A stretch of DNA of 64,000 bases. It comes from Candidatus Syntrophocurvum alkaliphilum. GTDB taxonomy: Bacteria; Bacillota; Syntrophomonadia; Syntrophomonadales; Syntrophomonadaceae. Both the position numbers and the translations under genes were made by a program. Below, piece by piece: positions 20,428-46,130 of the stretch (positions within the stretch are counted from its first letter, which is position 1; each line of letters starts with the position of its first letter). The stretch covers positions 1,730,001 through 1,794,000 of the forward strand of contig NZ_CP046457.1 of the NCBI RefSeq assembly GCF_009734445.1, read 5' to 3'. Under the pieces are notes generated by a model, which was not told where the DNA came from, searched no databases, and saw nothing but the letters and a program-made list of their open reading frames with translations.

Positions 20428-22336
20428 AAGCAAGCTTTTGCCCATCTGGCTGTTGTTCACCTACCACGTCTTTAAGATTATCCCGCAATTCTAGCACTTT
20501 TAATAATATCCCCATCATATCCTGAAGAGTTTGGTTGCCTTCATGAAATAATGTATCCGCATTCCATGAAGATCTGTCAATATTGCCTTTATTGACCAAA
20601 ACAGTATTAATACTCTGTAATGAAAAACCTGTACTATCAACCAATTTTAGAGGCTGATTAGGAGCACTTATATAATTAGCATACTCATGAATTCCTCTTA
20701 ATAATTTATTAGCCAAAGTTGGGCTTTTAATTCGTAGCTTTTCAAATCCTAAAGTTCCACGTAAAACCTGTTCTACCTGATCTATAAACGTATCTGGTTT
20801 TCCAATTTGACGATATGTATGTACTAAATACTGCAGAAAACTAGACCACTCTGGATACCTATAAACAATACTTCCCAAATCACCCAAATTATCTTCTGCT
20901 TCATTTGCTAGTTTTAATAATGCTGAGTTTAGTTCTCCAGACTGCTTATTAATGAATTCTCTAAGTTTTTCTACATGATTTTCATCCTTAGCAACTAAAG
21001 TAACTACACCAACACTGCTTTGCCCAATTCTTCCTGCCCTACCTGCAATATTCCAAAAATCTTCTGGTGGCATGTCAACAGTTTTTTGTTTTTCTGGATA
21101 TTGATGAGAAGCCATAATTAATCCAGAAATCGGAAAATTGACTCCCTGTGCAATAGTAGTTGTAGCGACAAGAAAATTCAATTCATTTTCCTCGAATAGC
21201 CATTCCATTAGAAATCGAACATCATCAGACAAGCCAGCATGGTGTACCCCAATTCCATAGGATAAAAGATCAATAAGCGGAAAATTTGCACCTAATTCAA
21301 GCTGCAAAAACTTTTTAACCAGTTGTATTTTTTCAGATGGTAGTTCTATATAATTAGATTCAATTTTTAACTTATCTGCTAAAGACCACACCCAATCTGG
21401 CCGCGTATGCATCACTATAACCGGTCCACGTTGCTTTAAATACTGAGCGGTTACAGCCGCCAATGTACTTTTGTCATTTACTTGAGCAAATGTCTTAGCA
21501 ATGTCATGTGTTCCCGGTAAATTAAGCAAACCATTAGTGGTCAATGTATTTCTTGAAGTATGCACTGTTTCCATATCTAAACTATAATTATAACTTTTAT
21601 TTTTTATTAATTCTTCTTGTTTAGCCTTAACAATACCTATAATTCTATCATTTGGCTGCCAGTCTAATGCAAGACTTATATCATCTGAATTTTGACCTCC
21701 CAGCCAACGGGCTACTTCTTGTCCGTTAGCAATAAAGGGGGTTAATAATAGGAATTGTGCCCACTGGCACTCTTTATTAATTGTAGCTAATAAAAGTTCT
21801 AGTTTCAGTCCACGACTATTACTCTGAATATTATGGGCTTCGTCAACTACAACTAATGTTAGTGGACGCCCTATCTTTTCTTCCCACCCTTGCCTAAGCA
21901 TTAGGTCCAATTTTTCTGGCGTTGTCACAAGAACTCTAAATTGTGAATTTTCGGCTTGTTCCTGTAATAATCTCTGTTCAATATTGTCTACCTCAAGCGC
22001 TGGACTAACTTGTTCGACTAACACTCCCAAAGAATCAAAATCACGACGCAATTGACGTGTAACCTGATTCACTAGCGCTTTTGTAGGAACAAGATAGGCC
22101 ACCCAACCTTTTTCATATTCAAATTGATTTAATGCCTGCAAAATTCGAAACTCTGCTATCATTGTTTTCCCACTTGAGGTAGGTAAACTAACAACTACAG
22201 CTCGGCGACTGGACCCTAATAAACCTTGTTCTGCTAACGTCCGGCGCTGTGGTGGTAAAACATCAAAAATGGCACGATTACCACGTCCTCTATCTACCAA
22301 ACTACGAACAAACTGAGTTACCCTAGAATATAAACG
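20390..22336 (-). pseudogene. Ski2-like DEAD/DEAH helicase, truncated at both ends
   Basis: About 648 codons with intact helicase motifs: Walker A PTSSGKT, DEAH box VVVDEAHN, TPEKLD, and motif VI GRAGRIG. The superfamily 2 Ski2-like arrangement suggests a DNA or RNA helicase of a defence or repair system. The 5' end is cut: the frame runs up to a stop at 22337 close to the IS21 end, without a proper start. The last dozen codons are out-of-frame hsdR relic sequence, so the true C-terminus is lost too. Probably not functional in its native role. Confidence 0.75.
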
Positions 22337-22358
22337 TCAATAAAAAAATGAACAAAAA

Positions 22359-22380
22359 TGCAAATATTTTTATGTACAAC
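22359..22380. repeat. IS21 left terminal inverted repeat
   Basis: Begins TGCAAATATTT and ends ATGTACAAC; pairs with the copy at 27926-27947 with a few mismatches. It overlaps the istB stop codon. Confidence 0.75.
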
Positions 22381-22805
22381 TAATCTTCTTTTTGACCAAC
22401 TTTTGATAGAGCTTCTGCAGTTCTATATGAACTACCAAGTATATTTACAATGCTAGAATGATGTACTAGTCTGTCTAAAATAGCACTAGCTAACATGTTA
22501 TCAGTAAAAATATCGGTCCAATCTGATAAACTAATATTACTAGTTACTATGGTGCTTTTTTTCTCGTATCTACGATCAATAAGCTGGAAAAACATTTTTG
22601 CCTCTTGCTCACCGATAGGCAAATATCCGATTTCATCGATTATTAAAAGCCTATATTTAGCAAAATGCTTAATTCGATTTTCTAACTTGTTTTCTAGATG
22701 AGCTTTCCTAAGTTGTTCAATTAAATCATGGCATTTAATAAAATAAGTGCTTATACGTTTTTTAGCTGCTGCAATACCTATAGAAGTGGCCAGATGCGAC
22801 TTTCC
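22380..22805 (-). pseudogene. istB: istB, 3' part
   Basis: C-terminal part of the IS21 ATPase helper, from the second half of the P-loop (GKSHLATSIG) through the Walker B LLIIDEIGYLP to the normal end. The 5' part is at 26287-26619. Joining both across the inserted element restores GNSGVGKSHLA and a frame of 252 residues, the usual IstB size. Confidence 0.9.
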
Positions 22806-22832
22806 GTTATGGAAAGCTTTCCATAACGGAAA
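22801..22832. repeat. 32-bp perfect palindrome at the left end of the Rit element
   Basis: Each arm is 16 bp, starting TTTCCGTTATGGAAAG. It begins with the TTTCC shared with the right junction. The palindrome contains two inverted copies of the TTATGGAAAG motif found elsewhere in the element's ends. Confidence 0.9.
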
Positions 22833-22858
22833 TTATAGTAAGTTTTTGCTTATGGAAA
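22828..22858. repeat. Rit element left inverted repeat
   Basis: 31 bp from GGAAATTATAGTAAG to CTTATGGAAA. It pairs with 26256-26286 with a single mismatch (T/C at base 12). Confidence 0.92.
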
Positions 22859-22954
22859 AAAATAAGAATATTACTGAATAATAAGAGGATAGTGCTTTTA
22901 TTTCTTTCCATAACACCTCACAATTAATTATACAAATATTATTGGAGGTGCTAT

Positions 22955-24196
22955 ATGGAAAAAAGAATACCAATTGAAGAATTAGTTAATAATGTTTTAA
23001 AGGAGCTTGAGAGATTAAACTATGCCCACAATACGATAAGTGGGTACCGTGCATTTTACAAAAGAGTAATTGAATTTGCACATGAAAAAAACCAAACATA
23101 TTTTTCTGAAGAGCTTGGTAGTGAGTTCTTGAAAGAAAAGTATAACTGCACAGTTAATTATTACACGGAATCAATGCCTAAATCTTTTAAGAATTCAATT
23201 AGGCGAATTAGAGTCCTTGGCGATTATCAACTTCACGGAGTAGTCATTAGAAGGATTGTAAAAAAACCTGGTTATGTGAATCCACCTCAATTTGAAAAAG
23301 AGCTTTTAGCTTATCAAAAATACTGTGAAGATAATGACTATGCTAAAAGAGGCCTTCGCACACGTATGCAAAGGCTTTTCTTTTTTATCGATTATCTGGA
23401 TGGGCGCAATATTCAAAATGTGAATGATATTACTCCTGAAATAATATCTCATTATGTAAAAACAATTTATAGACATCATGAGAAAAGTATTTCATCAATA
23501 CTTACAACCCTTAGAGTATTTTTAAGATTTCTATATCTTAATAAATTTACAAACGATAATTTATCAGTAAGCGTACCAAAACAAAAGAAATATCAATACC
23601 CGGCTATACCATCAGTATGGAAACAAGAAGATGTTAAACAGATGCTAGAAACAATAGATAGAGGGAACCCAACTGGAAAAAGAGATTTTGCTATACTTCT
23701 TTTAGTTACAAGACTTGGAATAAGAGTTGGTGATATTAAATCACTAAAACTATCTGATCTAAATTGGCAATCTAAAACTATAGAAATAAAACAGGAAAAA
23801 ACAAAAAGCAAAACTACATACCCAATATTGGATGATATCGGCTGGGCATTAATAGATTATTTTAAAAATGGACGTCCAGTAAGTCAATCACCATATGTTT
23901 TTATACGTATGCATGCACCCTATGAAGAATTTGGCAGGGATGCTAACCTCCATAATATTATAACGAAGTATACTAGACTTGCTGGGATCACAATTCCTAA
24001 GGGTAAAAGACATGGCATGCATTCTTTACGTCACACATTAGCTAGTACTCTTCTTGAACAAGGAACACCTTTACAAGTTATTTCAGAAGTATTAAGACAC
24101 ATAAACTCTAAGACCACAGGAGTATATTTACAGATAGGTATTGAAGGACTTAGAAAATGTGCACTTGACCCAGAGGAGGTGTTCTTAGATGATTAA
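22955..24196 (+). CDS. Rit recombinase A (tyrosine recombinase)
   Basis: 413 aa. N-terminal SAM-like DNA-binding part (to about 215), then the catalytic domain with Arg in RLGIRVGDIKSLKL, the HSLRHTLAS motif and the GVYLQI tyrosine. It catalyses strand exchange via a 3'-phosphotyrosine. A GGAGGT ribosome site stands before the ATG. The stop overlaps the next gene by 8 bp, and all three should be cotranscribed and act together. Confidence 0.92.
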   Translation: MEKRIPIEELVNNVLKELERLNYAHNTISGYRAFYKRVIEFAHEKNQTYFSEELGSEFLKEKYNCTVNYYTESMPKSFKNSIRRIRVLGDYQLHGVVIRRIVKKPGYVNPPQFEKELLAYQKYCEDNDYAKRGLRTRMQRLFFFIDYLDGRNIQNVNDITPEIISHYVKTIYRHHEKSISSILTTLRVFLRFLYLNKFTNDNLSVSVPKQKKYQYPAIPSVWKQEDVKQMLETIDRGNPTGKRDFAILLLVTRLGIRVGDIKSLKLSDLNWQSKTIEIKQEKTKSKTTYPILDDIGWALIDYFKNGRPVSQSPYVFIRMHAPYEEFGRDANLHNIITKYTRLAGITIPKGKRHGMHSLRHTLASTLLEQGTPLQVISEVLRHINSKTTGVYLQIGIEGLRKCALDPEEVFLDD

Positions 24197-25171
24197 AGAA
24201 CCGTACATTTTTACTAGCATTCTGGGTGATTTAATGGTTGGATATATAGAAGAACAAAGAGCTGTTGGATATAAATATACCAAAGGTGCATCACTTTTAA
24301 AAAAACTTGATCAATTGATTGTAAAAAACAATCTAAAGAGCAAAGAATTACCTAAAGAATTGGTATACCAATGGACAGCAAAAAGACCTAATGAAACAGA
24401 AAGCACCCAAAATGGCAGGATTTCAACAGTACGTGGTTTTGCAAAATATATGGTTCGTTTAGGATATGATGCTTACATTTACCCACCTCGCGCACTTACC
24501 ATTGAAAGATATTCGTATATTCCTTATATTTTTTCTAAACAAGAAATAAAAAAGATATTTGATATATGCGATAACTATCCAATTTCGGTATATTCTCCAA
24601 ACAGACATCTCGTTATTTCACTTATACTAAGAATGTTATATGGATGTGGCTTAAGAATATCCGAAGCTGTAAATTTAAAAATAAATGATGTTAATTTAAC
24701 TGATGGAACATTGACTATACATAATACAAAATTTGATAAAAGTCGAATTGTTCCAATGTCAGAATCTCTAAACAAGCAATGTCAACTATATGTAAAAGAA
24801 GTTCATCAGTTCGAAAGCAAGAATCCCTACTTTTCCCATCGCCATATGGTGAAAATTATAATGAAAGCACTATATATAAATTGTTTAGAAAAATAATATG
24901 GCAAGCAAATATTTCTCATAGCGGAAAAGGACCGAGGCTTCATGATTTAAGACATACATTTGCAGTACATTGTTTGAAAAAATGGGTGTTAGCAGGAGAA
25001 AACCTAACAAATCTTTTACCTTACTTGTCTGTTTATCTTGGTCATAACGATTTAAGGGGAACTCAACACTATCTTAGATTAACATCTGATTTATATCCTA
25101 CAATAACCACATCAGTGGAGCAGCATTTTTCAAACACAATACCGGAGGTAGTATTTTATGAAGATGACTAA
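24189..25171 (+). pseudogene. Rit recombinase B, frameshifted
   Basis: Two frames form a tyrosine recombinase of about 327 aa. The first (24189-24896) holds the N-terminal domain and YGCGLRISEAVNLK; the second supplies LHDLRHTFAVHCL and LGHNDLRGTQHYL with the tyrosine. They join near 24813-24823, where one base is missing: after HQFES the reading should pass to LLFPSPYGENYNES. The total 983 nt is one short of a whole number of codons. It could be a real mutation, which would disable the trio, or an assembly error. Confidence 0.88.
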
Positions 25172-26180
25172 TTTTGCTAGAACATTAACCCGTTACATGT
25201 CAGACTATCTCCCAACGCAACGTAATGTTAGCACAAATACAATCAAGTCTTACAGAGATACATTTAAACAACTATTGAATTATTTTGATGAAATACTAAA
25301 CATTAAACCTGAACATCTTACTTTTGAAAAAATAACTGCTGAGACAATTAAAGATTTTCTATTATGGCTTGAAAAGTCAAAAGGTGTTAGCATCAATACA
25401 CGTAATCAAAGACTAGCTGCAATACATAGCCTCTTTAGATATGTGCAGTCAGAAAATCCAGAGTTTTTATTAGAAAGTCAACGTATATTAGGAATTCCTT
25501 TTAAAAAAAGAGAAAAGAAGTCAATATCTTATTTAACCCAGGAATGTCTTAAAGCTTTATTACAACAACCAAATCCTAATACAATAAAAGGCCGTCGTGA
25601 TCTTACAATGATAGCTACTTTTTATGATACCGGAGCTAGAGTACAAGAATTAATTGATTTAAAAGCATGTGATGTTAGATTGACAAAACCTGCAACTGTT
25701 TTATTAACTGGAAAAGGAAACAAACAACGCTCTGTACCTATCATGGGAAAGACTTGTACATTATTAGAAGAGTATATGAGAGAACATTATCTTTTAGAAA
25801 ATGGTTATCAGAATCATCCATTGTTTTTTAATAGCAATAGAAAACCCTTTACAAGACCAGGGGTATCATACATTCTGGAAAAGTATCTTAAGAAAGCCAA
25901 AGAATCATATCCAGAAATGCAATTCCCGAAAAGCTTACATCCTCATATGATTAGACATACTAAAGCAATACATTTATTGGAAGCTAATGTTAATTTAATT
26001 TATATTAGAGACTTACTAGGACATGTTAATGTTACCACTACAGAAATTTACGCAAGGGTTAATTCAGAAGTTAAAAGAAAAGCATTAGAAGCAGCTTATG
26101 TTGAGGTTGTAAAACAAGATATTCCTGCTTGGGATAAAGATACTGATTTATTAAATTGGTTAAATGATTTTTGCAGATAA
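25158..26180 (+). CDS. Rit recombinase C (tyrosine recombinase)
   Basis: 340 aa. XerC/D-like layout: N-terminal core-binding domain (8-105) and catalytic domain with Arg in YDTGARVQELIDLK, HPHMIRHTKA and LLGHVNVTTTEIYARV carrying the tyrosine. All catalytic residues are present. Overlaps recombinase B by 14 bp. Confidence 0.92.
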   Translation: MKMTNFARTLTRYMSDYLPTQRNVSTNTIKSYRDTFKQLLNYFDEILNIKPEHLTFEKITAETIKDFLLWLEKSKGVSINTRNQRLAAIHSLFRYVQSENPEFLLESQRILGIPFKKREKKSISYLTQECLKALLQQPNPNTIKGRRDLTMIATFYDTGARVQELIDLKACDVRLTKPATVLLTGKGNKQRSVPIMGKTCTLLEEYMREHYLLENGYQNHPLFFNSNRKPFTRPGVSYILEKYLKKAKESYPEMQFPKSLHPHMIRHTKAIHLLEANVNLIYIRDLLGHVNVTTTEIYARVNSEVKRKALEAAYVEVVKQDIPAWDKDTDLLNWLNDFCR

Positions 26181-26187
26181 AAAAAGA

Positions 26188-26264
26188 TTATGGAAAGATT
26201 TTAGAATTATGCGATTTTTTTAACCATGAATTATTGCTTACTTAACACTAAAATCTTTCCATAA
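26188..26264. repeat. Subterminal inverted repeat at the right end of the Rit element
   Basis: 17-bp perfect arms TTATGGAAAGATTTTAG (26188-26204) and CTAAAATCTTTCCATAA (26248-26264). A weaker equivalent exists at the left end (22850-22865 with about 22897-22913). They probably form recombinase binding sites and a transcription stop after the third gene. Confidence 0.8.
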
Positions 26265-26286
26265 GCAAAAACTTGCTATAATTTCC
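26256..26286. repeat. Rit element right inverted repeat
   Basis: 31 bp inverted relative to 22828-22858, one mismatch; ends at the TTTCC that abuts the istB reading frame. Confidence 0.92.
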
Positions 26287-26619
26287 GACTCCGGAATTTC
26301 CGATCAATAGAATATTGCTGTTAGTCTCTAAGAATCTTAAACTTTCAAAATCTAAGAATTGTTGTTTATTAATTTTAGGTTGGAATTCAAAATCAAAATC
26401 TTTGAGTTCTTTTTGATGTGGAAATCCAGCTACTTTAACCATTGCATTGGTAGCATTAAAGTTTTTAACTTCTATCTCTTTAGAAGTAAGTTCGTATAAA
26501 GCATCTATAACGCTTATTTTCCCATCATTTATTTGGTCTAAATAATTATCTAACTTAATACTCATCTGGGTTAACTTAAGCTCTTTTAAATTGTCATGTA
26601 ATATTTGATAATTGCTCAT
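26287..26619 (-). pseudogene. istB: istB, 5' part
   Basis: N-terminal part of the IS21 helper ATPase: helical N-terminus, NFNATNAMVKVAGFP region and the start of the P-loop (LLIGNSGVG), where the reading frame is split by the inserted element. The start overlaps the end of istA by 26 bp, as is common for istA-istB. Confidence 0.9.
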
Positions 26620-27886
26620 TAAATTTCTCCAATTCCCTTAGATGCTGTATAGCATATTCTTCAACCCCATCATGTTTTCTAAATGTTTGTTTTAACATGT
26701 CTAAATGATGCTGTTCTGTGTATGTTATTTTTTTGTTTTCCATGATTTCATGGACAGTAATAAGTTTTTTGTTATAATAGACATGCAAGTTATTTTCAAT
26801 TATTTTTATTGTTACTTTCTTTCCAATTAAGGTTGAAGGAACTGAATACATTTTCTTTTTGTAAGAGAAAAGTGCATTTGTATTTACATTCACCTTTATG
26901 GAAGAAAGCTTATAGGAAGAACATATTTTTTCTTGTGGTAAAGGAAAAAGATGTTCTCTTTCTTTTTTGTACATAAGTATAGGTGGTATGCCTGTACTCT
27001 GACAAATTCTAGTATTAGCCTCGTTTGTTATCTGCTCTAATTTTTCATGTAATTGTTCGATATTATCTAACACTCCGTTATAAGTCATTATTTCATCTAT
27101 AATTTTCATAGGATTCTCTACTTTTGCTTTAGTTTGAGGCCTTCCTTTAATACAAGGAACTACTTTAAATCCATAATCATCTGCAAATTGCTGAAATTTA
27201 GGATTAACAGTACCATCTGATAATTCTGTTCTAGCTTTTAACATCATTGTAGTAGCATTATCTATAACTAACTCCTTAGGCACACCCCCTATTGTTTCAA
27301 AAGCATTAGCTAAAAAGTCTACAACACAATCTAAGCTTGTTGATAAGTAAATAAGCCAAACTTTTTGCCTTGATGCTGATAATACTAAGCTTCCTACATT
27401 TATAATTATTTCTTCACTATTTCTAAACCTAAATTTAATTTTTTCTTTCCAATCAAACTGTGCTTGTTTACCTAGTTCTGTTTCTGTTTTAATTGAATTT
27501 GAATTACCTTTTGGTTTAAAATAATTAGCAAACTCTTCATGCTTTAGTATGTAGTAATTAAAGTTATTCCTGGTGCATTTTAATCCATGCTCTCTTTGTA
27601 AATATCTAAACAGATGATCTTTGTAATAAAACATTTGAGATGATTCATCAGATAGTAATTCTTTTATAATTTCATAGTAGTCATCAATCACAGATTTTTT
27701 CTTTTTTCTTTCCTTTTTATCAGCTCCTATGTAATATTTTTTAACTGTCCTTCTATCAACCCCCAAATTCCTTGCTATTTCACTAAAATTTGGCTTATCC
27801 AAGTTATTTGCCTCCACAAGTGTTTTAAGTTTCGGTAAGTCTTTTACTGAGTTAATATCAATATCAGTAATTAATTTTATTTTCAT
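26594..27886 (-). CDS. istA: IS21-family transposase IstA
   Basis: 430 aa DDE transposase. An N-terminal helix-turn-helix (NFSEIARNLGVDRRTVKKYY) is followed by the rve integrase core; acidic residues are seen in QFDWKE and ELVIDNATT, and the third in the VENPMK region (Glu). The length is slightly below many IstA proteins. With istB broken, transposition would need help from another copy. Confidence 0.9.
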   Translation of the reverse strand: MKIKLITDIDINSVKDLPKLKTLVEANNLDKPNFSEIARNLGVDRRTVKKYYIGADKKERKKKKSVIDDYYEIIKELLSDESSQMFYYKDHLFRYLQREHGLKCTRNNFNYYILKHEEFANYFKPKGNSNSIKTETELGKQAQFDWKEKIKFRFRNSEEIIINVGSLVLSASRQKVWLIYLSTSLDCVVDFLANAFETIGGVPKELVIDNATTMMLKARTELSDGTVNPKFQQFADDYGFKVVPCIKGRPQTKAKVENPMKIIDEIMTYNGVLDNIEQLHEKLEQITNEANTRICQSTGIPPILMYKKEREHLFPLPQEKICSSYKLSSIKVNVNTNALFSYKKKMYSVPSTLIGKKVTIKIIENNLHVYYNKKLITVHEIMENKKITYTEQHHLDMLKQTFRKHDGVEEYAIQHLRELEKFNEQLSNIT

Positions 27887-27925
27887 TTCTCATCACCCAG
27901 TAAAACTATAGAAACTTATGTGATT

Positions 27926-27947
27926 TTTGTACATTTAAATATTAGCA
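27926..27947. repeat. IS21 right terminal inverted repeat
   Basis: Reads inward (minus strand) TGCTAATATTTAAATGTAC...; an almost identical end, extending further, occurs alone at 46059-46092. Confidence 0.75.
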
Positions 27948-28044: not shown

Positions 28045-31000
28045 TTAATCACTAGTATGTTCATAACCCTGCCACCTTAAGAAAGGATAGCCTTGATTTT
28101 CTGATGAGTTAATGCCCCAAGTGCTACTAAAATTCCAATCAACATAAGTAGCTTGCTGCTTCATTTGCTCAGTTGTTTTAGGTGTTCCACTCCCTGACTG
28201 CCCGTTCACATCTTCGTTGTAATAGGTGTTACTGGATGAGCCACTATCCCAGGTACCTACTATGCTACCCACGCTTGAACCATCTCCAGAAACACTTCCT
28301 GTCATGTAAGAGTTTGTTATATCACCAGCTATCCAACCTGCTAAACCCCCAATACCAGAACCACTTCCTTCTACATTGCCATGAGCGTTCACATTGCTCA
28401 AATCTCTTCTGTTAGAAATAAAGTTAGCTACCCACCCAATTTGCCCAACAAATCCACCTACCCTGTGTACACCTGTGACATCACCTGAAGCATATAGACC
28501 TGATAAATTTCTTATAGAATAACCGGCAAAACCACCTATTCTGCTGTACCCATCAACATTACCTGTAGCATAGCTCTCAGTGCATGAACTTCCAGTAGCC
28601 ATTTTACCTACAAACCCACCAACTTCTTCATTTCCAGCAACACTTCCAGTGGCATAACTGTTTGTAGCAGAGTTGTACGCCAATTCGCCTACAAATCCTC
28701 CAACCTGATCTGCACTGGGCGCATTCACATCACCTGTAGCGTAACTATTACTTACAGAAGTTCCCCCCTGCCCGGAAATTCTTCCAATAAAACCACCAAA
28801 ATGATTATGATCTTCTTCATCAAAGATACCTGTCACATTTCCCGATGCACTAGAGTCAAGAATTGTTAATCTAGTTCCACCATGTCCCAAGAGTCCTCCA
28901 ACATATTGGATACCATAGACATCTCCGTATGCTGAACAGTTTTCTATTTTCTGGTCGTAATCGGTATTAGACGTAGTTTGAGCAGCGGTTGCTCTTCCAA
29001 TTAAGCCACCCACATATTTCTCGCCATGTACTGTCAAATCCGCAGTTACGTTAGCCATCTGCCCAACAAACCTGCCAGCTAGAGGACCTACATAATCCTT
29101 GCCTGTAATGCTTCCTCCCTCTATGGTTAGGTTGTGGACACCTGGATGATGGTCTAAACTGCTGTATTTCGATGTTACCCCGAACAACCCTACATCATTT
29201 ACTTCTGGTCTGTCAATAAAAAGATTAATAACCGAATAACCCTCACCGTTAAATATACCTTGGAAAGTGTCTCCTTCAGTACCGATAGGCTCCCAACCTT
29301 TACCATCGTTCCAGTAGGCACCACCGTCAGATGTTGCATCGCCTAAATCAATATCATTTAGTAGGATAAAATGTGTATTGGCATGGTCAGACCCCAAGTG
29401 CTTTCTTACATTGTCTAAGTGTTCAGCTGTAGCTATTTGATAAGGGGCTTCCTCTGTACCACTACCACCATCAAAGTCCGCTTCTTCAGTTACTGTAATC
29501 GTTACGGTATCTTGAAAACCACCATCATTTGTGGTTACAGTGATTTCTGCTGTTCCTACCGCTACTCCTGTCACTTCACCAGTTGCACTTACTGTTGCTA
29601 TACCATCATCGCTTGATGACCATATTACATCTTTGTTTGTCGCGCTTCCAGGTTCTACTGTTGCGTTGAACTGGAAGTTTGCTCCTACTCCAATTGTTTG
29701 GTCAGCTTCGTCAATGCTTACTCCAGTTACAGGTACTAAAGTACCTGCAGCTTTCTCCCCATCAAAGGTTGCTGTCGCTGTATCTAAGTCTGTTACTGCT
29801 TGATCAACTGTTGCTTGAGAAGCACTAGTATCATCGTATACTCCTTGGGCTGCTCCTATAGCTTCTTCATATGTATCCATAGCTACCTGGCTTACCCACT
29901 CATCAGTTGTTAGTACGTCTGAACCGTCTGTGCTTATTTCTACAGAATCTCTGTTAGTTTCTGCTTCGCCAATGGCTGTTGCTAAAGCATTTTTATCTAC
30001 AGCTACATACTGAGCAGTCACTGTTAAGTCGCTTGTAATGTTTGTAAAGTCAGCTGGACTCCAACCCGTAAACTTGTAGCCATCTCTAGTTGGATCGGCT
30101 GGTGCTGTTGCTGCACTTCCGTGCTCTATTGTCTCTGTAGCGATTTCTGAATTATCCCAATCAACAAATGTTACTGTATATGTTTTTAGAGTCAGTGTAA
30201 CTGATTCAATAATATCTGATTCTATAACTGTCACACTACCTGTTACATCTTCATAGCCTGTTTTAGTTATTGTATAGCTGTAAGTTCCCTCTTCTAGATC
30301 AAATTCTACTTCTCCAGGCCAAACAGTAAGCTCTTCGTCGCCATTGATTGAAACTAGCGCATCATATATACCAACATTGAATTCTACTTTATGAAGGGTA
30401 ATTGGTTCATAATCTCCAGTTACCTCTATTGGATTATCTTCTCTACTTGCCACTTGAACACCCGTAGTGCCAGCTTGAATATTAACAGATTTCGTAGTAG
30501 ATGATCCTAAAGTGAATTCTAATCTTGCACCTGTAGCATTTGCCCCTACTTCTACATTAGTTGAAGCAGTGTCTCTCATATTAACTCTAACATTTGGCTT
30601 GTTAACTGTCATATTCCCAATTGATGAGTTTCTAAGCCTTACAGAATTTAGTCCACCGCCATCAATCGTTAGGTTGTCAAAATTCGTGCCATCAGCGGTG
30701 AAGTTATTAACGCCTGAAGATATTGATACTGTTCCATTAATAACCTGAAATGGAGAGTGCGGTGGAGTACCATTAATAACCACATTATCTGCCTTAATAG
30801 TCAAATTCCCATCTATTATGGCATTTGAACCATTAATCGTTTGTGTATTGCTTACTGTATAGTCACCAGTATATGTCCCAGGTACTACGGTAATTGTTGT
30901 TATGTCACTATTATCTAAAGCAGTGGTTAGCTCTTCTCTATTGTAGACAGCAGCAGTTGACGCAGCATTAAATGTAATCTCTTTTTTAGCAACTGAAGAA

Positions 31001-32523
31001 TTGTTCATACCTGATTTTACACCGATAACTTTTACTGTAACCGTCCCTCCAAGATCACTGTTGCCAGTTAAGTCACTCGCATCTACTGTTATCAATGATG
31101 ATGTTGGTGATGATGTGGAAGGTGTTGTTCCATCTAATGTGTAATAGAATGTAACTCCACTAATATCGGATGAGAAGTCAACTGCAACTGATGCACTGTT
31201 ATTTAAAGCACTAACATCATCCGGTGTTGTTGTAATATTAATAGCACTTACAGAAACTGTTGAGCTACTAGACGACCCACTTGATCTTCTAGGCTGTAAG
31301 TTCTCTGGCAGATTAATTTTATATTCTGAGTCCTTAGCTCCTGTACCTAAAGCTTTAATTATTCTGCCTTCATTATTAACATTTGTTGTTGTATTAACAT
31401 CAAGTAGGTCTATTACTGTTTCTTTTGATGTATTTACTTTTACTTCTTCTGCCTTGTCATCTATTTGTAGTTTATTAACCTGGGTTTCTTCTTGCATTGT
31501 TAGTTTTACATTTCCTGTATTCACATTTATATTGTCAAAGGTCCCTTGAAATATTATTTCAGTATCTTTTGCTTCTTCTGCGACTGTTACTGAAGCTCCT
31601 CTATCATGTATCATTACTATACGGAGTTTGCCTGCTGCTTTTTGAATGATTATATTTCTAAAGTCTCCTCCGTTTATGTAGATACTATCTGAGCCACCAC
31701 CTCTAATATAGGAGTCTCCTTCTACTGTAACATTGTTTAATGTTACTTCTCCTTCTCCTACTTCTTCTGCTATTGTAAGGTCACCTGTAATAGTTACATT
31801 TTGTAAAATTACTTGATCTGCTTTTATATATACATCACCATCAAACTTTTTATTTCCTTCTTCTGGACCATAGGTGCCTGCTTTGTTTATTGTCCAAATT
31901 GCCTCTTTTAATACTCTATCTAATAACACTAATGCTTCTGCCCTAGTTATAGGTTCTATAGGTTTAAAGCTACCATCTGGATATCCACCCATAAATCCTG
32001 CTTCTGCTACTGCTCCTACTGATCCTTTACTCCAACTTGGTATGTCTTTAGCATCATTAAATATATCTATATAATTTGTATTTTTTTTCATTTGTTTAAT
32101 TTTAGTAATGATTATAGCTGCTTCCTGTCTACTTATTGTATTATTTGGTTTAATTGTTCCGTCAGGATAACCGCCAATGTAACCTGCTGCATATGCTATT
32201 TTGATTGCCTCTGTAAACCAAGTGTCTTCTGGCACATCGCCAAACTGGATTTCCCCTTCTTCTGTGAAATTAAATACTCTGTTTGTTAAGGTCATGAATT
32301 CTGCTCTAGTAATTGAATTATTAGGTTTAAATGTACCATCTGGATATCCCCTAACAATTCCTCCATCTACCATTTCTTGAATTGTATCTTTTGCCCAATG
32401 GTTTTTTATATCTAATAACGTGTTATTTGCATAAACGTTTGGTGTCGATTCAAAAACTATGGTAAATAAAAAGGTAAATAATAAAAAAACACATAGCATT
32501 TTATTCTTTTTTAAAACCAACAT
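28045..32523 (-). CDS. Large SLH-domain surface protein with beta-helix, Big_2, InlB_B and GLUG regions
   Basis: 1492 aa. Signal peptide to about residue 32 (VYA), then three SLH repeats (about 35-210; IVRGYPDGTFKPNNSITRAE is typical) that anchor it to the wall. Next: a repeat-rich part with DUF-like beta strands (220-420), a Ser-rich linker (SSGSSSSST), a chitobiase/Big-like segment, beta-helix, an InlB_B repeat (VTFVDWDN...GYKFTGW), a FIVAR-like helix, a Big_2 domain (VSIDEADQTIGVG) and finally GLUG-type repeats (YVGGLIGR, VGGFVG). The ATG at 32523 has GGGAG 9 bases before it; a longer reading to 32583 would put a charged stretch before the signal peptide. Likely adhesin or S-layer-associated scaffold; ligand unknown. 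Confidence 0.87.
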   Translation of the reverse strand: MLVLKKNKMLCVFLLFTFLFTIVFESTPNVYANNTLLDIKNHWAKDTIQEMVDGGIVRGYPDGTFKPNNSITRAEFMTLTNRVFNFTEEGEIQFGDVPEDTWFTEAIKIAYAAGYIGGYPDGTIKPNNTISRQEAAIIITKIKQMKKNTNYIDIFNDAKDIPSWSKGSVGAVAEAGFMGGYPDGSFKPIEPITRAEALVLLDRVLKEAIWTINKAGTYGPEEGNKKFDGDVYIKADQVILQNVTITGDLTIAEEVGEGEVTLNNVTVEGDSYIRGGGSDSIYINGGDFRNIIIQKAAGKLRIVMIHDRGASVTVAEEAKDTEIIFQGTFDNINVNTGNVKLTMQEETQVNKLQIDDKAEEVKVNTSKETVIDLLDVNTTTNVNNEGRIIKALGTGAKDSEYKINLPENLQPRRSSGSSSSSTVSVSAINITTTPDDVSALNNSASVAVDFSSDISGVTFYYTLDGTTPSTSSPTSSLITVDASDLTGNSDLGGTVTVKVIGVKSGMNNSSVAKKEITFNAASTAAVYNREELTTALDNSDITTITVVPGTYTGDYTVSNTQTINGSNAIIDGNLTIKADNVVINGTPPHSPFQVINGTVSISSGVNNFTADGTNFDNLTIDGGGLNSVRLRNSSIGNMTVNKPNVRVNMRDTASTNVEVGANATGARLEFTLGSSTTKSVNIQAGTTGVQVASREDNPIEVTGDYEPITLHKVEFNVGIYDALVSINGDEELTVWPGEVEFDLEEGTYSYTITKTGYEDVTGSVTVIESDIIESVTLTLKTYTVTFVDWDNSEIATETIEHGSAATAPADPTRDGYKFTGWSPADFTNITSDLTVTAQYVAVDKNALATAIGEAETNRDSVEISTDGSDVLTTDEWVSQVAMDTYEEAIGAAQGVYDDTSASQATVDQAVTDLDTATATFDGEKAAGTLVPVTGVSIDEADQTIGVGANFQFNATVEPGSATNKDVIWSSSDDGIATVSATGEVTGVAVGTAEITVTTNDGGFQDTVTITVTEEADFDGGSGTEEAPYQIATAEHLDNVRKHLGSDHANTHFILLNDIDLGDATSDGGAYWNDGKGWEPIGTEGDTFQGIFNGEGYSVINLFIDRPEVNDVGLFGVTSKYSSLDHHPGVHNLTIEGGSITGKDYVGPLAGRFVGQMANVTADLTVHGEKYVGGLIGRATAAQTTSNTDYDQKIENCSAYGDVYGIQYVGGLLGHGGTRLTILDSSASGNVTGIFDEEDHNHFGGFIGRISGQGGTSVSNSYATGDVNAPSADQVGGFVGELAYNSATNSYATGSVAGNEEVGGFVGKMATGSSCTESYATGNVDGYSRIGGFAGYSIRNLSGLYASGDVTGVHRVGGFVGQIGWVANFISNRRDLSNVNAHGNVEGSGSGIGGLAGWIAGDITNSYMTGSVSGDGSSVGSIVGTWDSGSSSNTYYNEDVNGQSGSGTPKTTEQMKQQATYVDWNFSSTWGINSSENQGYPFLRWQGYEHTSD

Positions 32524-32674
32524 TGAAATACTCCCTTCAAAAATAATATCTCTTCTACTACCCTCCTCTTTATAAAATTCCACCCATTTTTAACCCCGAT
32601 AAAATAATCATTTTAAAATTTCTATCTTAGGAGTAATTGCCTAAGACAAAAAGCTAATTAGCTTTTAAATTATA

Positions 32675-45955: not shown

Positions 45956-46058
45956 TTATGTGAAGGATTAAGTTAGACGCAGGAAAGCTTCTCCTGTCCT
46001 GAAATGCAAAAAAATCGGGAATATCACCCCGAGTTTTCTCTAAATAATATATATAAAA

Positions 46059-46092
46059 TGCTAATATTTAAATGTACAAAAAATCACATATG
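46059..46092. mobile_element. Solitary IS21 terminal sequence
   Basis: Matches the right end of the IS21 element at 27947 read inward: 22 identical bases, then the same sequence with one extra A through ATCACATA, and weaker likeness for some 20 bp more. No transposase genes remain. It is the scar of an older IS21 insertion or deletion. Confidence 0.7.
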
Positions 46093-46130
46093 TTACTAAT
46101 TGGATTACTCCAAACTGGCCACGCTCTACT

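Follow-up and report, generated by a model that had tools for sequence, protein, structure and literature searches.

In a 64,000-nucleotide stretch of the Candidatus Syntrophocurvum alkaliphilum genome (NZ_CP046457.1, positions 1,730,001 to 1,794,000; hereafter the window), a recombinase-in-trio (RIT) element interrupts the istB of an IS21-family element at the Walker A Gly-Lys codons. Taken together with the insertion sites of its relatives, this makes it very probable that the recombinases of this RIT subfamily insert their element site-specifically at these codons. RITs were described more than 10 years ago, and how and where they move was open. In the accessible parts of the published descriptions, RITs have three adjacent, overlapping tyrosine-recombinase genes in the order A-B-C over ∼3.5 kb (PMC3414803, PMC2864759), end in a 28-9 bp inverted repeat with an overlapping palindrome (PMC3414803) and interrupt IS66 tnpA, radC and a Tn6049-like transposase (PMC3414803, PMC2864759). 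RitA has two core-binding domains and RitC an extra C-terminal helix (PMC8138268). Target specificity of RITs is listed as not formally tested in the portion of PMC10214605 available to us.

A sequence-only reading of the window had proposed a three-recombinase RIT element inside the istB P-loop, and this proved correct. The rit genes are co-directional and adjacent, overlap by 8 and 14 bases (22955-26180, plus strand) and match Pfam Phage_integrase in all frames, and the Walker A codons are divided between two istB halves (Table 1). An empty copy, which the sequence-only reading had proposed to look for, is present in the same genome (2.36 Mb, one contig), with its uninterrupted istB at G000:C1:1615956-1616711; comparison with this IS21 copy gives a length of 3,481 bp for the insert. 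As had been predicted, GVGKSHLA and an IstB of 252 aa reappear when 22806-26286 is removed in silico, and this protein has 100% identity to the IstB of the uninterrupted copy. The repeat shared by the boundaries had been given as TTTCC, which is indeed present at 22801-22805 and 26282-26286, but the full shared stretch is 6 bp, TTTCCG (22801-22806 and 26282-26287), so that the junction can be placed only to within 6 bp. Besides the recombinase frames, no open frame of at least 80 aa was found inside the insert (22801-26287). The element thus resembles known RITs in its gene order, its ∼3.5 kb size, its 32-bp repeat with a 20-bp palindrome and its homology to the copy on Cupriavidus necator pHG1, with which RitC is 47% identical over 99%; the accessible part of PMC2864759 lists pHG1 among the carriers of RITs.

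Table 1. Features of the interrupted IS21 copy and of the inserted RIT element (window positions)
Feature	Position	Strand	Evidence or remark
IS21-family copy, RIT-interrupted	22329..27934	-	flanks joined without the insert match the second copy at 2123/2125 bases
istB downstream half, starts GKSHLA	22380..22805	-	Pfam IstB_IS21, profile positions 104-234
Outer hexamer TTTCCG (CGGAAA on istB strand), palindromic end	22801..22806		common to empty copy and right end
20-bp palindrome TTATGGAAAGCTTTCCATAA, two abutted boxes	22807..22826		direct reading; pattern search
Inner hexamer CGGAAA	22827..22832
Left terminal inverted repeat, 32 bp, 31/32 identical to right one	22827..22858		repeat score 30 over 32 bases
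ritA, 413 aa	22955..24196	+	Phage_integrase 2.9e-25
ritB, frameshifted (frames 24189-24896 and 24779-25171)	24189..25171	+	Phage_integrase in both pieces
ritC, 340 aa	25158..26180	+	Phage_integrase 3.4e-31
Right terminal inverted repeat; short end, joins target directly	26256..26287
Hexamer TTTCCG at short end	26282..26287
istB upstream half, ends GNSGV before core Gly-Lys	26287..26619	-	Pfam IstB_IS21, profile positions 2-103
istA of interrupted IS21, 430 aa	26594..27886	-	open frame; also in second, intact copy

The collection of related insertions suggested by the sequence-only reading indicates that this site is a rule. An alignment of RitC (the window protein and three relatives, all in istB) was scanned against a collection of 84,980 species genomes, the selection being made on RitC and not on the target; the best 80 of 140 candidates encoding relatives, together with the window, gave 81 loci. 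Inverted repeats starting with GGNAATTAT were present at one or both ends in 43 of them, and in 41 of these 43 elements one end or both can be tested (at five short ends and one palindromic end the flank is too short). Walker A halves adjoin every testable end: at the 40 short ends an in-frame Gxxxx immediately precedes the core Gly, and at the 29 palindromic ends the translation reads GK[ST]. None of the 69 testable ends in the 41 elements lay off Walker A, although elements with these ends at unrelated sequences had specifically been sought. Four flanked ends lacking GGNAATTAT, the left ends of L044, L060, L065 and L068, fall outside that test; the left end of L068 is truncated into RitA. 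Scanning viral contigs with RitC gave no relatives, and scanning them with the pattern of the palindromic end gave no match.

The ends share a common anatomy. Outward from the genes, each repeat contains two boxes of the type TTAT..AAAG, followed by a hexamer nGGNAA. At the short end (S-end) this hexamer abuts the target directly; at the palindromic end (P-end) it is followed by a 20-bp palindrome of two abutted boxes, a second hexamer and then the target, the P-end of the window being TTTCCG-TTATGGAAAGCTTTCCATAA-CGGAAA (22801-22832). Core sites of the Xer/FLP type consist of inverted binding boxes ∼10 bp long around a 6-bp spacer, and the RIT ends read as such a core, with inverted boxes around a 6-bp nGGNAA spacer, apparently doubled into a palindrome. 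The P-end always lies toward the K[ST] half and the S-end toward the GxxGx half, irrespective of the direction of the rit genes, and the P-end adjoins ritC in 19 elements and ritA in 11. Both orientations would be expected of a circle whose site is symmetric and offers two equivalent points of crossover. The copies L164, L166 and L168, all three from one genome, are the same over 60 bases and differ at N of the inner hexamer, as expected if hexamers are exchanged.

The shared site could also reflect common descent rather than target choice, if a single ancient insertion into istB had spread as an IS21-RIT composite. The RIT copies do lie inside IS21 elements, an IstA homologue being found within 3.5 kb of 25 of the 31 upstream flanks long enough to ask, and most copies are grouped on the RitC tree. 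However, the occurrence of the rit genes in both orientations relative to istB (19 and 11) contradicts such a spread, an intact and nearly identical copy of the window istB exists, the downstream istB halves are just 22-58% identical to that of the window, and Walker B of the same gene has been hit by another lineage. We therefore consider such a descent improbable.

A broader specificity, in which a Gly-Lys codon pair of the form GGNAAR would suffice in any ATPase, appears slightly less probable still. The genetic code makes any Gly-Lys codon pair satisfy the minimal core GGNAA, but the targets recognised belong to the IstB family only. When each half was scanned separately, Pfam IstB matched 28 of 29 downstream and 35 of 38 upstream halves, NCBIfam IS21_help_AAA matched 29/29 downstream halves, and no other family dominated. 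The target is thus IstB of IS21 elements, and not ATPases at large. The sequence-only reading had suggested that the sequence of the target, shared by many ATPases, might determine its choice: the 69 ends bear out the choice of the P-loop codon string, but the extension to several ATPase families is not supported.

The RIT might alternatively be a regulated switch, whose precise excision and re-insertion would toggle IS21 transposition, the element being kept as a brake on its host. Excision would indeed give back a full, in-frame IstB; however, the insert contains the recombinase frames and no other frame of the size given above, RitB of the window is broken, and related trios hit reverse-transcriptase, integrase and methylase genes, which makes this explanation very unlikely. 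Finally, the chance arrival of a non-specific element on a P-loop, conceivable for one single insertion, is scarcely credible when the same codons are met at every testable end, and it is refuted for the GGNAATTAT subfamily. Random insertion, composite common descent and generic P-loop targeting were rejected on this evidence.

The codons at which the RITs of this subfamily insert encode the most conserved part of IstB. In an alignment of 17 intact IstB proteins, GKSH ranks first in conservation among 249 windows of four residues, DEIG (the best one in Walker B) seventh and IDEI twentieth. Where both halves are present (23 targets), the motif shows little or no variation at its non-wobble bases, and third codon positions carry ∼0.01-0.4 bit, two-codon residues excepted. 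This low third-position information is the pattern described for TnsD and glmS in the accessible part of PMC2918618.

Beyond the anatomy of the sequences, we infer the following mechanism. RIT recombinases would cross over within the 6-bp spacer nGGNAA, between the element box (TTAT..AAAG) and the target sequence. Excision would restore istB and join the ends in a circle, with a predicted attachment site that is palindromic and offers two equivalent 6-bp crossover sites; such a site would allow insertion into the asymmetric target in either orientation. Synonymous changes would be tolerated because the protein allows no change in the part of the gene that is targeted, as for TnsD at glmS and inteins in P-loops, and the genes of other mobile elements would provide a harmless, repeated and horizontally spreading landing site. 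Were the P-end to cross over at its inner hexamer with another istB copy, the products would be elements with two S-ends, as well as lone palindromes between two downstream halves.

Structures of both kinds are present. Elements flanked by two upstream istB halves, that is, with two S-ends, were found at L041, L042, L047 and L052, and palindromes without rit genes stand between two downstream halves at L165, L176, L177 and L178 (one of the L165 halves soon meets a stop); they would fit traces of rearrangement between two IS21 copies. When the palindrome alone was the query, blind to rit genes and target, it was present in 12 of 398 genomes of the phylum. Among the 17 loci read from this search, L171 is a chance intergenic palindrome, L174 lies at the QGG of a reverse transcriptase, L166 and L029 have altered cores, L167 and L168 were left unassigned, and the rest have GK[ST] halves. 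A pattern search around G446 matched in 6/397 genomes, seemingly mostly at the places of the palindrome search, and no new targets were read from it. As separate observations, the RIT at L082 has a palindrome at both ends, each adjoining an upstream reverse-transcriptase half at QGG, which mirrors the two-S-end elements, and the flanks of the RIT at L111 read as different genes (by eye, IS transposase-like and an NlpC-like frame), perhaps through another rearrangement.

Several observations weigh against site-specific insertion as set out here. No transposition was seen, mobility being deduced from the empty copy and the varied targets. The intact copy in the window's own genome is the only near-identical empty site found; the search in 22 genomes of other loci gave interrupted copies or diverged homologues only, and the pattern search for the circle junction matched at 0/186 loci. 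The S-end, P-outer and P-inner hexamers often differ (the GGN base of the S-end equals that of the P-outer hexamer in 15/25 elements), so that either strand may come from the target, and the cores GTTAA (L166) and AGCAA (L029) depart from GGNAA. By eye, the left end of L065 lies in another part of istB. As every target is istB, sequence alone cannot split recognition from protein conservation. Lastly, RitB is one open frame in 65 of the 68 loci examined, and the window is among the three exceptions; its RIT copy may be inactive through the RitB frameshift, or the frameshift may be an assembly error.

The 38 loci without a GGNAATTAT end extend the picture to other targets. The target could be read in 26 of them; L050, L066 and L106 end within the repeat, without flank, and L073, L080, L087, L098, L104, L108, L111, L114 and L117 were left out. 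These RITs interrupt IstB at Walker B (L084, L085, L091, L102, L112, L118), group II intron reverse transcriptases at QGG (L069, L071, L072, L076, L078, L082, L086, L089, L090), tyrosine recombinases at HxLRH (L079) or the catalytic Tyr (L095), AbiEii-type nucleotidyltransferases at KGGT (L103, L105, L109), a C5 methylase at ENV (L113), SSB (L093), a TraG-like ATPase (L115), an ArdA-containing protein (L097) and putative amidoligases (L110, L116). QGG, HxLRH, KGGT and ENV are what we take to be the motif names at these sites. Pfam backs 20 of the 26 targets, and L071, L072, L078, L105, L112 and L116 were assigned by eye only. Each family has one breakpoint position (RVT_1 122-124 in 6/6 scanned, IstB 160/161 in 5/5 scanned). 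In plasmid records, RITs of Rhodococcus and Agrobacterium vitis split a reverse-transcriptase gene at QGG, and those of Mycetohabitans and Paraburkholderia phymatum adjoin IstB Walker B (by eye); the plasmid loci L179 and L181 were left out of the target readings. Related lineages use other conserved motifs, mostly in mobile-element genes, the SSB, TraG-like, ArdA and amidoligase targets not being counted in this motif reading. The sequence-only reading had missed these sister lineages, and the targeting idea is wider than it held.

Target type follows the RitC phylogeny. On a tree of 89 rows, changes of target type were counted and compared with 500 shuffles: Walker A (42 rows) required 6 changes versus 30.1 in shuffles, with 0/500 shuffles as low, and the reverse-transcriptase group (10 rows) required 5 versus 9.6. 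Walker B (6 rows) and KGGT (3 rows) each correspond to one change. Walker B occupies two distant places, L084-L118 and L183/L184; L184 is wrongly labelled as a Walker A plasmid copy in the tree, its ends showing Walker B, and this label was not used in the counts. Several long branches leave the deep order of the tree unsure. This clustering indicates that target choice goes with lineage, although no single clade accounts for it.

The repeated hits of the relatives suggest that targets seem to be found by reading conserved active-site codons. We are inclined, with less confidence than for the istB site itself, to regard RITs as a class of transposons addressed to catalytic motifs, with one active-site codon string per lineage, usually in mobile-element genes. 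Lineages would have switched between motifs: IstB Walker A, IstB Walker B (two separate clades), reverse-transcriptase QGG, tyrosine-recombinase HxLRH and catalytic Tyr, AbiEii KGGT and C5-methylase ENV. If true, RITs would be to DNA what inteins are to proteins, and their trios a natural set of recombinases that have changed targets. From related trios directed to different codon strings one could learn how the DNA specificity of tyrosine recombinases changes, a matter of wide use in genome engineering. The insertions also show a class of mobile element that exploits the least changeable codons of others. The target rule, together with the predicted attachment site and circle junction, makes RIT mobility directly testable.

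Several known systems offer points of comparison. Like an Xer/FLP core, the RIT site has inverted boxes around a 6-bp spacer, but it appears to be doubled, forming a palindrome, and its partner is a target without a clear box in the arms. In Tn7, TnsD is a separate selector, insertion occurs downstream of glmS and leaves the gene unbroken, and the transposase is of another class. RITs resemble the TnsD pathway in that active-site codons are read and variation across hosts falls at wobble positions only, as far as the accessible part of PMC2918618 describes it. Inteins share the same address, the Walker A or Walker B codons of ATPases (PMC5050341, accessible part). However, inteins are removed from the protein by splicing and rely on other enzymes for homing, whereas a RIT disrupts its target gene, the targets being dispensable mobile-element genes. 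Tn554, SE and GInt elements also combine several tyrosine recombinases with a site preference, and SE and Tn554 with a 6-bp junction hexamer. In contrast to the RIT, where none was seen in the 3,481 bp, they need a small protein (TnpC, Srap or GinD), and the available portions of these reports (PMC10214605, PMC5385486) do not present their circle as palindromic. Compared with previously described RITs, the target here is a fixed codon string, and the accessible text of PMC3414803 and PMC2864759 gives no target rule. None was found in the open literature, which does not cover the main RIT paper (Ricker et al. 2013, Plasmid), and one may exist elsewhere.

Two further observations concern the surroundings of the interrupted IS21. 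A 42-base piece at 46056-46098 of the window is 93% identical to one end of this IS21 and is perhaps a remnant. The IS21 adjoins a 1,512-aa open frame (28045-32583) that by eye resembles a repeat-rich protein of the surface-layer type.

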